Assembly: GCF_039392895.1 (NCBI RefSeq)
Contig: NZ_CP135027.1
Span: 62,001-126,000 of the forward strand
Direction: 5' to 3'
DNA from: Buchnera aphidicola (Mindarus keteleerifoliae)
GTDB taxonomy: Bacteria; Pseudomonadota; Gammaproteobacteria; Enterobacterales; Enterobacteriaceae
DNA: 64,000 nucleotides
Part shown: positions 54,487-61,177 of the stretch, piece after piece
Layout of the letters: each line of letters opens with the position of its first letter
Position numbering within the stretch: the stretch's first letter is position 1
Made by a program: the position numbers and the translations under genes
The notes under the pieces: model-generated
What the model was told of the DNA's origin: nothing
Seen by the model: only the letters and a program-made list of their open reading frames with translations
Databases searched by the model: none

Positions 54487-56415
54487 ATGCCTATTATTAC
54501 TTTTCCCGATGGTTGTCGTCAAATTTATGATCGGTCTGTTTCATTGATGGAAATAGCTAATGATATAATGGGACGTAAAGCTTCTAATTTTTATGTTGCT
54601 GCTATCGTTAATAATGTTCTTGTTGATATTGAAAAAATAATTAAAGAAGATAGTGAAATACGGTTCATAACAATTAAAGATAAATTAGCTTTGAATCTTA
54701 TTAGATATTCTTGTATGCAGCTTTTAGCGTATTCAGTTAAAAAAATTTGGCCTGAATCAAAAGTAGCAACTGGGTGTATTACAGAAAATGGTTTTTATTA
54801 TGATTTTGATGTTAATAGATCTTTAACATTTCAAGATATTGAAATGATAGAAAGGAAAATGAAGGAATTATCTAAAAAAAAGTACAAAATAATAAAAAAA
54901 CAAGTTGAACGGAATTTAGTAAATAAATTATATAAAAAAAATAAAGAGTATTATAAAATTGAAGAAATTAATGACAAGTTTAAAAAAATAGATAATTTTT
55001 TTTTATATTATCATGAAAATAACGTTGATTTTTATGGACCTCAAGTATCGAATATTAAATTTTGTCAATTTTTTAATTTATTAAACATTTCAGGGGCTTA
55101 TTGGAAAAGAAAAAAAAGTAATAAAATGTTACAACGGATTTATGGTACTGCATGGACTAGTGAAAAAGAATTAAAAATGCATTTATGTTATCTTAAAGAG
55201 TTAGAAGATCGAGATCATCGAAAAATTGCAAAAGAATTAGGTTTCTTTCATTTTCAAAAAAATTCGCCAGGAATGGTTTTTTGGCATAGTTTTGGATGGA
55301 TTATTTTCAGAGAATTGGAAACATTTATTAGATCAAAACTAACAAGTCATAAATATCAAGAAGTAAAGAGTCCTTTGTTGATGGATAAGATTTTGTGGGA
55401 AAAAAGTGGACATTTAGATAATTATTTTGAAAATATATTTACCACCATGTCTGAAAATAAAATTTATTGTATAAAACCTATGAATTGTCCTGGACATATA
55501 CAAATATTTAATATTGGAACAAAATCATATAAAGATCTTCCTGTTAGGATGGCAGAATTTGGACTTTGTCATAGAAACGAAACATCTGGTTCTTTACATG
55601 GTTTAATGAGAGTTAGATCATTTACACAAGACGATGGACATATATTTTGTACTGTTGATCAGATTCGGACAGAAATCAATGATTGTATAAAAATAATATA
55701 TGAAGTATATCATTTATTTGGATTTAAAAACATTCAAGTTAAATTGTCTACTCGGCCTAAAAAAAGAATTGGAACTGATTTTATGTGGGATCAAGCTGAG
55801 TTAAATTTGTCGGCAGCATTAAAAGAAAATAATATAAAATTTCAACTTCAGGTTGGAGAAGGAGCTTTTTACGGTCCAAAAATAGAATTTTCTTTTTTTG
55901 ACAATTTAAAAAGAATTTGGCAATGTGGAACTATTCAACTTGATTTTTATCTACCTGAAAGATTACAAGCTTTATATATAGATGAAAACAATGAAAAAAA
56001 ACCAGTAGTAATGATTCATAGAGCTATTTTAGGTTCTATGGAAAGATTTATTGGAATATTAATTGAAGAATATAAAGGAAAGTTTCCAACTTGGATTTCC
56101 CCAATACAAGTAGCAATAATTAATGTTAATAAAATTCATACTAATTATGTAACGCAACTATCTAAAAGAATGTTAGAATTAGGAATTCGTGTAAAAGCAG
56201 ACTTACGAAATGAATCTATTAGTTTTAAAATTAGATATTATACTTCGAAATGTGTTCCGTACATATTGATTTGTGGAGATAAAGAAGTTGCTAATAACAC
56301 AGTTTCGATTAGAACTAGAACTGGAAAAAATATAAATAATCTTAATTACAAATTTTTTATAGAAAAAATAAAAAAAGAAATTTATAATCGTAGTTTTTTT
56401 CAATTGGAGGAATAA
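54487..56415 (+). CDS. thrS: threonyl-tRNA synthetase with a degenerate editing site
   Basis: ThrS charges tRNA-Thr. The 642-residue class II enzyme equals E. coli in length. The N-terminal TGS-like domain, catalytic core and anticodon domain are present. The zinc ligands Cys (KPMNCPGH), His (DDGHIFC) and His (VMIHRAILG) are intact. The N2 editing domain, which clears Ser-tRNA-Thr, has lost its metal/catalytic residues. E. coli HxxxH (73/77) reads Tyr74 and Gln78, and CRGPH (182/186) reads YGPQ. Charging should work but proofreading should not. An AAGGAT site precedes the ATG. The infC start follows its stop by three bases. Confidence 0.96.
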   Translation: MPIITFPDGCRQIYDRSVSLMEIANDIMGRKASNFYVAAIVNNVLVDIEKIIKEDSEIRFITIKDKLALNLIRYSCMQLLAYSVKKIWPESKVATGCITENGFYYDFDVNRSLTFQDIEMIERKMKELSKKKYKIIKKQVERNLVNKLYKKNKEYYKIEEINDKFKKIDNFFLYYHENNVDFYGPQVSNIKFCQFFNLLNISGAYWKRKKSNKMLQRIYGTAWTSEKELKMHLCYLKELEDRDHRKIAKELGFFHFQKNSPGMVFWHSFGWIIFRELETFIRSKLTSHKYQEVKSPLLMDKILWEKSGHLDNYFENIFTTMSENKIYCIKPMNCPGHIQIFNIGTKSYKDLPVRMAEFGLCHRNETSGSLHGLMRVRSFTQDDGHIFCTVDQIRTEINDCIKIIYEVYHLFGFKNIQVKLSTRPKKRIGTDFMWDQAELNLSAALKENNIKFQLQVGEGAFYGPKIEFSFFDNLKRIWQCGTIQLDFYLPERLQALYIDENNEKKPVVMIHRAILGSMERFIGILIEEYKGKFPTWISPIQVAIINVNKIHTNYVTQLSKRMLELGIRVKADLRNESISFKIRYYTSKCVPYILICGDKEVANNTVSIRTRTGKNINNLNYKFFIEKIKKEIYNRSFFQLEE

Positions 56416-57743: not shown

Positions 57744-58754
57744 ATGAAGTTGATTATATATGATGAAATTACATTTAGTTTAAAGAAAGCTAAATTATTT
57801 AAAAGTAAAATTGTAAAAATGAAAGATATAAAAGAGTTAGAAAGAATTAAGTTAATGTTCCTTGGGAAAAAAGGAGTTTTTACTAACATTTTTAAAAAGA
57901 TATCTTCATTGTGTTTGTCGGAAAGAAAAAAATTAAGTATGAGTGTAAATTCAATTAAAAAGGAAATTCAATTTTTAATAAATACTAAAAAAAAAGAAAT
58001 AATTAAAATGAATTTACAAAGAAAAATTAATTTAGAAAAAATTGATGTTACCTTACCATGTAAACGATTTAACATAGGTTCAATTCATCCAATTAGTAAA
58101 ACTATATCTGATATAGAGGAGTATTTTTCTAAAATTGGATTTAATATAGTTACAGAAAATTTTGAAATAGAAAACCAATATTATAATTTTGATGCTCTTA
58201 ATATTTTTCAAGATCATCCTGCTAGAACATCTCAAGATACTTTTTGGATTAATAAAAATTATTTATTGCGAACTCAGATGTCCAGTATGCAAGTTAGGAT
58301 GTTAAAAAAAAGTAAGTTACCTATTAAAATATTAGTTTCAGGAAAAGTGTACAGAAATGATTATGATTCTAAACATACTCCAATGTTTCATCAAATTGAG
58401 GGATTAGTTATTGAAAAAAAAATAAATTTTTCTAATTTAAAATGGATGATGAATGAATTTATTGACTATTTTTTTGAAAATAAAGTTGTTAAACGTTTTA
58501 GAAATTCTTTTTTCCCCTTCACAGTTCCTTCTATGGAAGTAGATGTTTTAGAAGAAAAAAAAAATTGGATAGAAATATTAGGATGCGGTATGGTTCATCC
58601 TTCAATTTTAAATAAAATAGATGTTGATTTAAATGATTATCAAGGATGTGCATTTGGAATAGGGGTTGAAAGATTAGCGATGTTACGTAATAATATTAGT
58701 GATATTCGTTTATTTTTTGAAAATAATCTACGTTTTTTAAGACAATTTAAATGA
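57744..58754 (+). CDS. pheS: phenylalanyl-tRNA synthetase alpha subunit
   Basis: PheS carries the catalytic core of the alpha2-beta2 enzyme that charges tRNA-Phe. The 336-residue protein (E. coli 327) has an N-terminal coiled-coil region, FLGKKGVFT, NFDALNIFQDHPAR, LLRTQMSSMQVR and KVYRNDYDSKHTPMFHQIEG (class II motif 2). LGCGMVHPSIL and FGIGVERLAMLR (motif 3) follow, and it ends RFLRQFK as in E. coli. The ATG at 57744 has AAAGG too close for a good site; a TTG six bases on is an alternative start. Confidence 0.95.
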   Translation: MKLIIYDEITFSLKKAKLFKSKIVKMKDIKELERIKLMFLGKKGVFTNIFKKISSLCLSERKKLSMSVNSIKKEIQFLINTKKKEIIKMNLQRKINLEKIDVTLPCKRFNIGSIHPISKTISDIEEYFSKIGFNIVTENFEIENQYYNFDALNIFQDHPARTSQDTFWINKNYLLRTQMSSMQVRMLKKSKLPIKILVSGKVYRNDYDSKHTPMFHQIEGLVIEKKINFSNLKWMMNEFIDYFFENKVVKRFRNSFFPFTVPSMEVDVLEEKKNWIEILGCGMVHPSILNKIDVDLNDYQGCAFGIGVERLAMLRNNISDIRLFFENNLRFLRQFK

Positions 58755-58774
58755 AAAATTAGGTGATATTTTTA

Positions 58775-61177
58775 ATGAAATTTAGTAAAAAATGGTTATT
58801 AGAAAGAGCTAATTTGTCAATTAGCAGTAAAAAAATTTGTAGTCAAATGACTCAAGCAGGATTAGAAAGTGAAATATTGACGGATGAATTAAATAAATTT
58901 AAAAAAATAATTGTTGGTAAAATTATTTCTTATCATTTACATCCAAAATCTAAAACTTTAAAAGTTATTAAGGTTAAAATTGAAAAAAAAAGAATAATTC
59001 AAATTATTAGTAATGCTAAGAATTGTAGAGTGGGAATAAAAGTTGCTGTAGCTACTAAATCTAGTGTAATTTTAAAAGATAAAAAAGTTTTTTCTAAAGT
59101 AATATTAGGAGAATTATCTGAAGGAATCTTATGTTCTTTTCAAGAATTAGGTATGATAGATAATCAAATAAACAATGTAATTGAATTGCCATCATTTGCT
59201 TTAATCGGAAGAACAGTAAAAGAATATTTTTATCCAAATGATACTACAATAGTAGTTAATTTACCTTCTAATCGTTCTGATATATTAGGAATAATAGGCA
59301 TAGCAAGAGAAATGTCTGTTTTAAATGGTTTAAGTTTTGCTAAATTTGAAAAAAAAAAAGTAATTCCTAAAATAAAAGATGTAGGGAAAGTTAAAATATT
59401 AACACATAAAGAATTTCCTAAATACGTAGGAAGAATAATTAAAAATATTGATTTACAAGTAGATACTCCTTTTTGGATAAAGGAAAGATTAAGATTTTGT
59501 CAAGTTTCTTTAGAAGAAAATGTAATAAATAATATTATTAATTATGTTTTAATTGAATTTAATCAACCGTTACATGTATTTAATTGGAATTATAATAATT
59601 CCAATTTAATCTTTCGATATTCTAAAAAAAATGAATTAGTTAAATTAGAAAATGGCGAATCATTTTTTTTAGATGAAAAAATAATTGTAGGAACATGTAA
59701 AAATTCAAAAATAATTTTTATACCTTTAGGATTAAATTTGAAGAATGGAAGAATTTCTTTTTCTTCAAAAAACATTTTATTATGTAGTGTTTTTTTAACC
59801 CCATCATATGCAAAAAATTTTTCAAATCAAAAATGGGTTTCTTTCAAAATGTTGGAAACTTATAAAAGAGGTATGGATTTTAGTTTTCAAAATTATGTTT
59901 TGGAGTATGCTACTGAATTGATATTAAATATCTGTGGGGGTTTGCCTGGACCTATTTTAAATAAAAAAACATTTTCAAATTATTTCAAAAGAAAAAAAAT
60001 TCTTTTTAATTTTAAAAAAATTAAAAAAATTCTTGGATATGAAATAGACATTTTCAGAATAGAAAAAATTTTAGTTCTTTTAGGATTTGAAATAATTAAA
60101 TGTAAAAAAAATATTTGGGAAATAACTATTCCTACATGGCGAAATGATATTTCTTTAGAAGAAGATATTATTTCTGAAGTTATTCGTGTTGTTGGATGCG
60201 ATAAAATTAAATCAATTCCTATAAAGTCAAAAGTTATTATTGGTAAAAAAAATAAAATAACTTCTTCTTTAAAAGAAATAAAAAGTATGTTTTTTTATAA
60301 AGGATATAACGAAGTAATTAATTATTCTTTTGTTAATCCTTCCCAACAAAAAATTTTTTTTAAAGATAAGGAATTAATTTCATTATTAAATCCTATTTCA
60401 ATAGAAATGTCTTCTATGAGATCAACTTTGCTTGTTGGTTTGTTAAATAACATATCTTATAATCAAAGTAGACAAGAAACTTCAATTCGTTTATTTGAGA
60501 TTGGTTTATGTTTTTCTCTTGAAGAAAAAAAGAAATATGAAGTGAATCAAGAATTATTTATTGCAGGAGTAATTAGTGGAAAATTAACTGAAAAGCATTG
60601 GAATATAAAAGATAGAAAATTTAATTTTTTTGATTTAAAAGATGATGTGGAAACTATGTTGTCTTTAACAAGACATCATTCAAATATTTTTTTTTCTCCT
60701 AAAGTTTTTTTCGGATTACATTCTCATCAAAGTGCAGAAATATTGCTTAATAATCAATCGATTGGAAAAATTGGAACATTAGATCCTATCTTAATAAAAA
60801 AATTTAATTTAAAAGAATCTGTTTTTTTATTTGAAATATCTATGGAAAAATTATTTCCATTTAATAATTTTTCAGTTAAAGATATTTCTATTTTTCCTGG
60901 TAGTAAGAAAGATATATCTTTTTTAGTTTCTAATAAAGTTTTATCTATTGATATTATTAAAGAATGTGAGTCCGTATCTCCAGGAAATATTAAGAAAGTT
61001 TCCTTAATTGATATGTATACTGACAAAAAATTTTTGAAGGGAACAAAAGGTATCTCAATTAGTTTATTTTTTCAAAATCAATATAAAACATTAGAAGAGT
61101 CTGAAATATTACAATTAGTAGAAAAATGTATCTCTCAATTAAGAAAAAAATTTAATATTATACTAAGAAACGAATAA
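58775..61177 (+). CDS. pheT: phenylalanyl-tRNA synthetase beta subunit with a degenerate editing site
   Basis: PheT supports the catalytic alpha subunit, binds tRNA and normally hydrolyses Tyr-tRNA-Phe. The 800-residue protein (E. coli 795) starts MKFSKKWLLERA at an ATG with AGGTGAT; an in-frame start 12 bases upstream is rejected. The tRNA-binding OB domain, B5 and the C-terminal anticodon-binding fold are present. In the B3/B4 editing domain the E. coli segment around Glu334 (GGEHSGV) aligns with LNLKNGRI, and HTDASHRYERG (Thr354, Ala356) with SFKMLETYKRG. The editing residues are therefore lost, while flanking structure (YKRGMD, ICGGLPGP) is kept. ihfA, next in E. coli, is absent. Confidence 0.95.
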   Translation: MKFSKKWLLERANLSISSKKICSQMTQAGLESEILTDELNKFKKIIVGKIISYHLHPKSKTLKVIKVKIEKKRIIQIISNAKNCRVGIKVAVATKSSVILKDKKVFSKVILGELSEGILCSFQELGMIDNQINNVIELPSFALIGRTVKEYFYPNDTTIVVNLPSNRSDILGIIGIAREMSVLNGLSFAKFEKKKVIPKIKDVGKVKILTHKEFPKYVGRIIKNIDLQVDTPFWIKERLRFCQVSLEENVINNIINYVLIEFNQPLHVFNWNYNNSNLIFRYSKKNELVKLENGESFFLDEKIIVGTCKNSKIIFIPLGLNLKNGRISFSSKNILLCSVFLTPSYAKNFSNQKWVSFKMLETYKRGMDFSFQNYVLEYATELILNICGGLPGPILNKKTFSNYFKRKKILFNFKKIKKILGYEIDIFRIEKILVLLGFEIIKCKKNIWEITIPTWRNDISLEEDIISEVIRVVGCDKIKSIPIKSKVIIGKKNKITSSLKEIKSMFFYKGYNEVINYSFVNPSQQKIFFKDKELISLLNPISIEMSSMRSTLLVGLLNNISYNQSRQETSIRLFEIGLCFSLEEKKKYEVNQELFIAGVISGKLTEKHWNIKDRKFNFFDLKDDVETMLSLTRHHSNIFFSPKVFFGLHSHQSAEILLNNQSIGKIGTLDPILIKKFNLKESVFLFEISMEKLFPFNNFSVKDISIFPGSKKDISFLVSNKVLSIDIIKECESVSPGNIKKVSLIDMYTDKKFLKGTKGISISLFFQNQYKTLEESEILQLVEKCISQLRKKFNIILRNE

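Follow-up and report, generated by a model that had tools for sequence, protein, structure and literature searches.

Editing-deficient PheRS, LeuRS, and ThrRS of Mycoplasma, together with loss of editing across host-restricted bacteria, have been published, according to the accessible parts of several papers (PMC7373986, PMC10057733, PMC11415595, PMC4014445). In Mycoplasma the defects of PheRS and LeuRS were confirmed biochemically, and editing loss is reported for most host-restricted bacteria (PMC10057733, PMC7373986; accessible text). A 2019 paper, in the part available, names the Leu, Thr, and Phe enzymes as the ones losing editing and stresses that AlaRS fidelity is needed (PMC6918089); Portiera strains which lack alaS yet carry the Ala editing protein alaXp (PMC5322561, accessible text) fit with retention of Ala editing. 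For Thermus PheRS, Glu334 and His261 are described in the available text as key to recognizing and anchoring Tyr-tRNA(Phe) (PMC3275996). A literature search, mostly of papers outside subscription access, yielded no description of PheRS editing loss in Buchnera in the accessible text of sources including PMC4014445, PMC3544837, PMC5322561, and PMC2659769.

Here we analyze a 64,000-nucleotide stretch of Buchnera DNA (the window) whose PheRS has lost the residues of the editing site. This loss is of an ordinary, already described kind in host-restricted bacteria, and its mild interest lies in the order and extent of decay.

The pheT Gene and Its Genome

The gene under study had been named correctly in an earlier note on this DNA, including strand and coordinates, as profile matches, domain matches, and alignments all indicated:

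58775..61177, forward strand: pheT, PheRS beta subunit, 800 amino acids (TIGR00472, five Pfam domains)

The NCBIfam model TIGR00472 matched residues 1–798 with 616 bits against a cut-off of 403, and the Pfam domains tRNA_bind, B3_4, B5, CLM, and FDX-ACB form a complete set; the product is a full-length bacterial PheRS beta subunit. Its open frame spans 804 residues without a frameshift, and an in-frame GTG at 58763, upstream of the pheT start, is an alternative start. The gene is present once in the genome, and the protein is about 35% identical to that of E. coli over its whole length.

The genome to which the window belongs (G000 in our numbering) has 551,674 bases, is 98.5% complete, and is that of a small-genome host-restricted bacterium. 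A contig of 6,435 bases matches leucine plasmids of Buchnera aphidicola, the best match being that of Buchnera from Greenidea ficicola (72.8% over 94% of 3,000 bases), which bears out the earlier note's assignment of the DNA to Buchnera. The first 1,500 bases of a smaller contig (G000:C3, 2,728 bases; L317) had no match in plasmid records, a collection which includes Buchnera plasmids.

Degeneration of the B3/B4 Editing Pocket

The editing domain and its altered sites are as follows:

59417..59938, forward strand: B3/B4 editing domain, residues 215–388, fold kept, pocket degenerate (Pfam PF03483, 97 bits)
59723..59737, forward strand: Pro317-Leu318 ... Asn321 at E. coli Gly314-Gly315 and Gly318 (alignment)
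59783..59785, forward strand: Cys337 in place of E. coli Glu334 (phmmer, MAFFT)
59843..59851, forward strand: Phe357-Lys358-Met359 at E. coli Thr354-Asp355-Ala356 (phmmer and MAFFT alignments)

E334, T354, and A356 (E. coli numbering) are the residues which we take to mark editing competence. Alignment with E. coli K-12 PheRS beta from NC_000913 and with PDB chain 3pco_B revealed C337, F357, and M359 in their place. The protein therefore has none of these three residues of an editing-competent bacterial PheRS, and it shares with naturally editing-deficient PheRS a B3/B4 domain that is present, pocket residues that are replaced, and a single gene copy. The earlier note had read Lys, Phe, and Met at the three positions. 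Phe357 (59843–59845) and Met359 (59849–59851) are indeed at T354 and A356, but the Lys (Lys358, 59846–59848) sits at D355, and the gapless anchor around E334 (E. coli NVLLECAFF, window NILLCSVFL) puts Cys337 there instead. The note had also described the flanking sequence as alignable without gaps; the stretches with E334 and T354–A356 are anchored on both sides, but the phmmer and MAFFT alignments gave the window one extra residue close to E. coli position 308, within the segment in question, and another near 247–251, just upstream of it. The observation of a destroyed editing site thus holds in substance, if not in every detail, and the loss is wider than had been noted: R244 is changed to Ser, D247 and D251 to Asn, T253 to Ile, G314-G315 to Pro-Leu, G318 to Asn, G319 to Leu, and H358 to Glu.

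Two pocket residues, H265 and N254, are retained. In addition, all three genomes of the genus have a Ser directly ahead of Phe357, aligned with H353; a one-residue shift could bring its hydroxyl near the Thr354 site, with Glu334 and Ala356 still missing.

Taking as invariant the positions that are identical in 22 PheRS beta sequences from large genomes, the window protein keeps 37/95 within B3/B4 versus 161/304 elsewhere (Fisher P-value = 0.019), or 34/92 versus 162/302 with Pfam-based borders (P-value = 0.006). This excess of loss is only moderate, since the whole protein is just about 35% identical to its E. coli counterpart.

An AlphaFold2 model built from a 26-sequence alignment (mean pLDDT 79.8) predicted a complete B3/B4 module, whose weakest stretch, residues 351–360 (mean pLDDT 61), includes Phe357 and Met359. 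Using VIA-align, we found that the model can be placed along its entire length on PheRS beta of P. aeruginosa (Z = 38.8) and of E. coli (Z = 38.5), with an rmsd of 18–24 Å over the whole long chain. Because this comparison yields ranges only at such rmsd, it confirms membership of the family but not the register of the pocket. Similarly, the model supports the fold and not the pocket, since its input alignment already contained such relatives.

Distribution of the Loss

The survey was based on 149 genomes, 53 of which are at most 2.0 Mb; pheT was taken from 52 of these (G077, which had no place listed, was dropped) and from G149. The large set comprised 22 rows, namely E. coli K-12 and 21 of the 96 larger genomes, which were the best-scoring ones rather than a random draw (G028 was left out since its pheT match was in pieces). 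All of E334, T354, and A356 were kept in 22/22 large genomes, 9/13 genomes of 1.0–2.0 Mb, 4/11 of 0.65–1.0 Mb, and 1/29 of at most 0.65 Mb. Conversely, none of the three was kept in 0/22, 0/13, 3/11, and 19/29 genomes, respectively; the last 19 include one C-terminal half only (G132) and one poorly aligned sequence (G102). The alignment of B3/B4 across lineages that the earlier note had proposed as a check thus found both sister genomes and most small-genome relatives without the editing residues. The three positions read C/F/M in the window and S/H/I and S/Y/I in two sister genomes of the genus, and such differing replacements are as expected of sites without function.

In a quick tree only 11 of 55 inner branches were starred, and the 15-member clade containing the window is therefore used as a working grouping. 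No match was obtained when E. coli genomes were searched at the DNA level with the window sequence. A scan of genome contigs for relatives gave none in a first pass and 80 named loci in an alignment-based pass, nearly all from free-living organisms and none named Buchnera.

Searches for Backup Proofreading

We searched the window's genome for other proteins which might hydrolyze mischarged tRNA. The sole B3_4 match was pheT itself, at the same place, and neither a second B3/B4 domain, a second pheT, nor a free-standing B3/B4 protein was found in this genome. Searches of it for a YbaK/ProX-type deacylase (controls matched in 12/14) and for a Dtd-type deacylase (controls matched in 8/14) were also negative, and the tRNA_SAD domain was detected in alaS and thrS only.

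Editing Sites of Seven Synthetases

According to the accessible text of a review (PMC7373986), Mycoplasma genomes are not known to have lost more than two editing functions; for this reason, all seven editing synthetases were counted. The count covered 30 genomes picked for small size, and an enzyme was considered lost when at most one site residue was kept. The sites, which we assume to be the editing positions and for which the sole check was that E. coli carries the stated residue, were E334/T354/A356 in PheRS, H73/H77/C182/H186 in ThrRS, T247/T248/T252/D345 in LeuRS, E218/K279/D350/H369 in ProRS, T242/T243/H333/D342 in IleRS, T222/K277/H282/D283 in ValRS, and H564/H568/C666/H670 in AlaRS.

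The window's genome keeps 0/3 residues for Phe, 0/4 for Thr, 1/4 for Leu, and 0/4 for Pro, and 4/4 each for Ile, Val, and Ala. Hence, where the earlier note had counted two lost proofreading functions, editing sites are lost in four of seven synthetases (PheRS, ThrRS, LeuRS, and ProRS), and those of IleRS, ValRS, and AlaRS are intact. The features concerned are

54487..56415, forward strand: thrS, editing domain dead (H73Y, H77Q, H186Q, C182 removed)
G000:C1:224451-225734, reverse strand: ProRS (L220), 436 amino acids, insertion (editing) domain mostly deleted (sequence comparison)

In ThrRS, DMCRGPH is changed to DFYGPQ, a one-residue deletion taking out C182, and in LeuRS, TTRPDT reads IKNLEC. 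Only 45 of 184 residues of the ProRS insertion domain remain, whereas in the two sister genomes this domain still has 179 and 186 residues and shows little identity to that of E. coli. Short ProRS proteins like that of the window's genome also occur in G018, G120, and G127.

The earlier note had remarked that the ThrRS and PheRS losses lie within 6 kb. Both sites are lost, but the order thrS-infC-rpmI-rplT-pheS-pheT is that of E. coli too, and the closeness of an inherited gene order carries no information. A single local event behind the neighboring losses was rejected on the same ground. As a separate observation, ThrRS open frames of about 409–447 amino acids, with the N-terminal editing half missing, occur in 11 of 43 ThrRS rows (E. 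coli row excluded): L033, L035, L039, L057, L058, L064, L065, L067, L068, L072, and L073, all from lineages outside the window's genus.

Among the 30 genomes, all site residues were kept in 1 for Phe, 1 for Thr, 6 for Leu, 2 for Pro, 26 for Ile, 26 for Val, and 28 for Ala, a split between Phe/Thr/Leu/Pro and Ile/Val/Ala that runs through these small genomes. The two Ala misses are not clean losses, because alaS is cut at a contig end in G006 and fragmented in G123. At least three of the Phe, Thr, Leu, and Pro functions were lost in 12 of the 30, and all four in the window's genome only. The split is not strict: many genomes show only partial decay of the Leu and Pro sites, and the ValRS site of G123 is altered. 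As the 30 genomes are related, the losses are not independent events.

Two further observations concern the retained enzymes. IleRS (L125; G000:C1:139433-141922, reverse strand) reads TTTIWS instead of TTTPWT in the window's genus, the other examined editing residues being kept. G123, the sole candidate for Ala or Val editing decay among the genomes counted, has alaS fragments with a stop and the ValRS motif TSSPET versus TTRPET (G123:C2:525368-527232 and 307836-310646; L195, L163).

Selection on the Editing Domains

Identity to E. coli is lower in the editing domain than in the rest of the protein for PheRS (29% vs. 37%), ThrRS (44% vs. 60%), and LeuRS (26% vs. 51%). The ProRS editing domain is also less conserved than the rest, those of ValRS and AlaRS are not, and IleRS lies between (43% vs. 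52%). Within the genus, identity of B3/B4 is 59–70% versus 65–76% elsewhere in PheRS beta (P-value = 0.12–0.22), and dN/dS, calculated by NG86 and giving rough values in such an AT-rich genome, is 0.45–0.55 versus 0.34–0.36. The dead ThrRS editing domain is as constrained as the catalytic part (0.21–0.27 vs. 0.25), and the LeuRS editing domain is clearly faster within the genus (P-value = 0.003, one pair tested).

The earlier note had suggested relaxed selection on translation fidelity. The low identity of B3/B4 to E. coli fits relaxed selection during the descent from an ancestor resembling E. coli, but its conservation and dN/dS within the genus indicate that the domain is not freely drifting now. 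Since the IleRS, ValRS, and AlaRS sites are intact, the relaxation of selection on fidelity concerns certain errors and is not general. Overall, that interpretation stands in part: loss of PheRS and ThrRS editing chemistry is well supported by sequence. As read from these residues, PheRS editing chemistry is apparently gone and the B3/B4 scaffold is retained.

Interpretation and Alternatives

The best reading is that ordinary reductive evolution has ended the post-transfer proofreading of Tyr-tRNA(Phe) by PheRS (rough probability 0.88); B3/B4 would still fold, and the Tyr-tRNA(Phe) pocket would be gone. The replacements, the similar state of the sister genomes, the lack of a second B3/B4 domain in the window's genome, and the decayed ThrRS, LeuRS, and ProRS sites argue for it. 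Against it stand the retained H265 and N254, the Ser next to Phe357 in all three genomes, and the conservation of B3/B4 within the genus, which is unlike a part without any use. The enzyme would lack deacylation activity, and Tyr would enter some Phe codons. A host-protected life and weak selection may have left tolerable errors uncorrected (Ser for Thr, Tyr for Phe, and other residues at Leu and Pro codons), with mistakes at codons for Ile, Val, and Ala probably still under negative selection. The dead B3/B4 would persist as a structural element within the large beta subunit.

It is possible, though unlikely, that the loss is compensated by a synthetic site in the alpha subunit which discriminates better against Tyr and thereby keeps mistranslation low, as reported for mitochondrial PheRS; that editing loss may accompany higher specificity is also suggested by ProRS without an editing domain (PMC11415595, accessible text). 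The gene in question is

57744..58754, forward strand: pheS, PheRS alpha subunit, aminoacylation site mostly preserved (Ala294 retained; T170M, E252V, F293C; MAFFT)

T170M and E252V are found in all three genomes of the genus and F293C in two of three (Phe in G149). These three residues are presumably near the amino acid pocket, and Ala294, which we take to govern pocket size, is kept. E252 is replaced by V, I, T, or L in all 15 examined members of the window's clade, but it is still Glu in most editing-deficient small genomes outside the clade, and the change therefore does not track editing loss generally. Moreover, in Mycoplasma PheRS, the studied case, Phe codons are read as Tyr according to the accessible text of PMC10057733. 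T170M and E252V are nevertheless a lead for altered Phe/Tyr specificity.

Still less probable is that B3/B4 is kept for another job, such as contacts with tRNA or between subunits or a pocket rewired for another mischarged amino acid, with purifying selection reflecting that job. The dN/dS values of B3/B4 and of the dead ThrRS domain, the predicted whole fold, and the full-length match to E. coli PheRS beta are all compatible with such a role, but folding alone can hold a large internal domain. Of the 58 invariant positions lost in B3/B4, 22 have the same new residue in all three genomes; such fixed replacements are at least as frequent elsewhere in the protein (70/143), so they carry no special signal. 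Finally, a pocket that is merely shifted in the alignment or hidden by sequence error is very improbable: one-residue insertions are required near E. coli 308 and 247–251, but the E334 and T354–A356 stretches are anchored on both sides, the 804-residue frame is intact, many symbionts agree, and the agreement of the two sister genomes speaks against sequence error as the source of the replacements, which we reject.

Comparison with Known Systems

Under reductive loss of editing, the pattern shows which controls on translation are dispensable to a cell, and the intact Ile, Val, and Ala sites point to the mistakes that apparently stay intolerable even while a genome decays. We tentatively propose, as a generalization with slightly less than even odds, that insect symbionts lose editing in a set sequence, with Thr and Phe followed by Leu and Pro and never Ile, Val, or Ala; that the window's genome stands at four of seven, against two in Mycoplasma in the accessible text of the review; that its proteins would be statistically heterogeneous at four codon families; and that dead domains are scaffolds under purifying selection. 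Given the review's limit of fewer than three losses in Mycoplasma (PMC7373986, accessible text), a symbiont with four offers a direct proteomic test of that limit. That a mutualist which cannot profit from antigenic variation shares its losses with parasites speaks against immune escape as their cause and for tolerance of particular errors.

Mitochondrial PheRS is monomeric and has no B3/B4 domain. Like the window's enzyme, it lacks editing and belongs to a host-dependent compartment (Roy et al. 2005, cited in PMC11415595); it is reported, in the accessible text of the latter, to compensate by specificity, and the window's enzyme differs in retaining B3/B4. The editing-deficient PheRS of Mycoplasma (Li et al. 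2011; Han et al. 2022; as cited in the available part of PMC10057733) likewise has B3/B4 present, the pocket replaced, and a host-restricted small genome. In contrast, the window comes from an insect mutualist related to E. coli with more editing synthetases hit per genome. The disappearance of editing domains from host-restricted bacteria, described by Melnikov et al. (2018, via the accessible text of PMC7373986, PMC10057733, and PMC11415595), is the same phenomenon, with the same enzymes and link to small genomes. Beyond that work as cited there, our analysis adds one genus, a per-genome count, the deletion of the ProRS insertion domain between sister genomes, and the constraint on dead domains.
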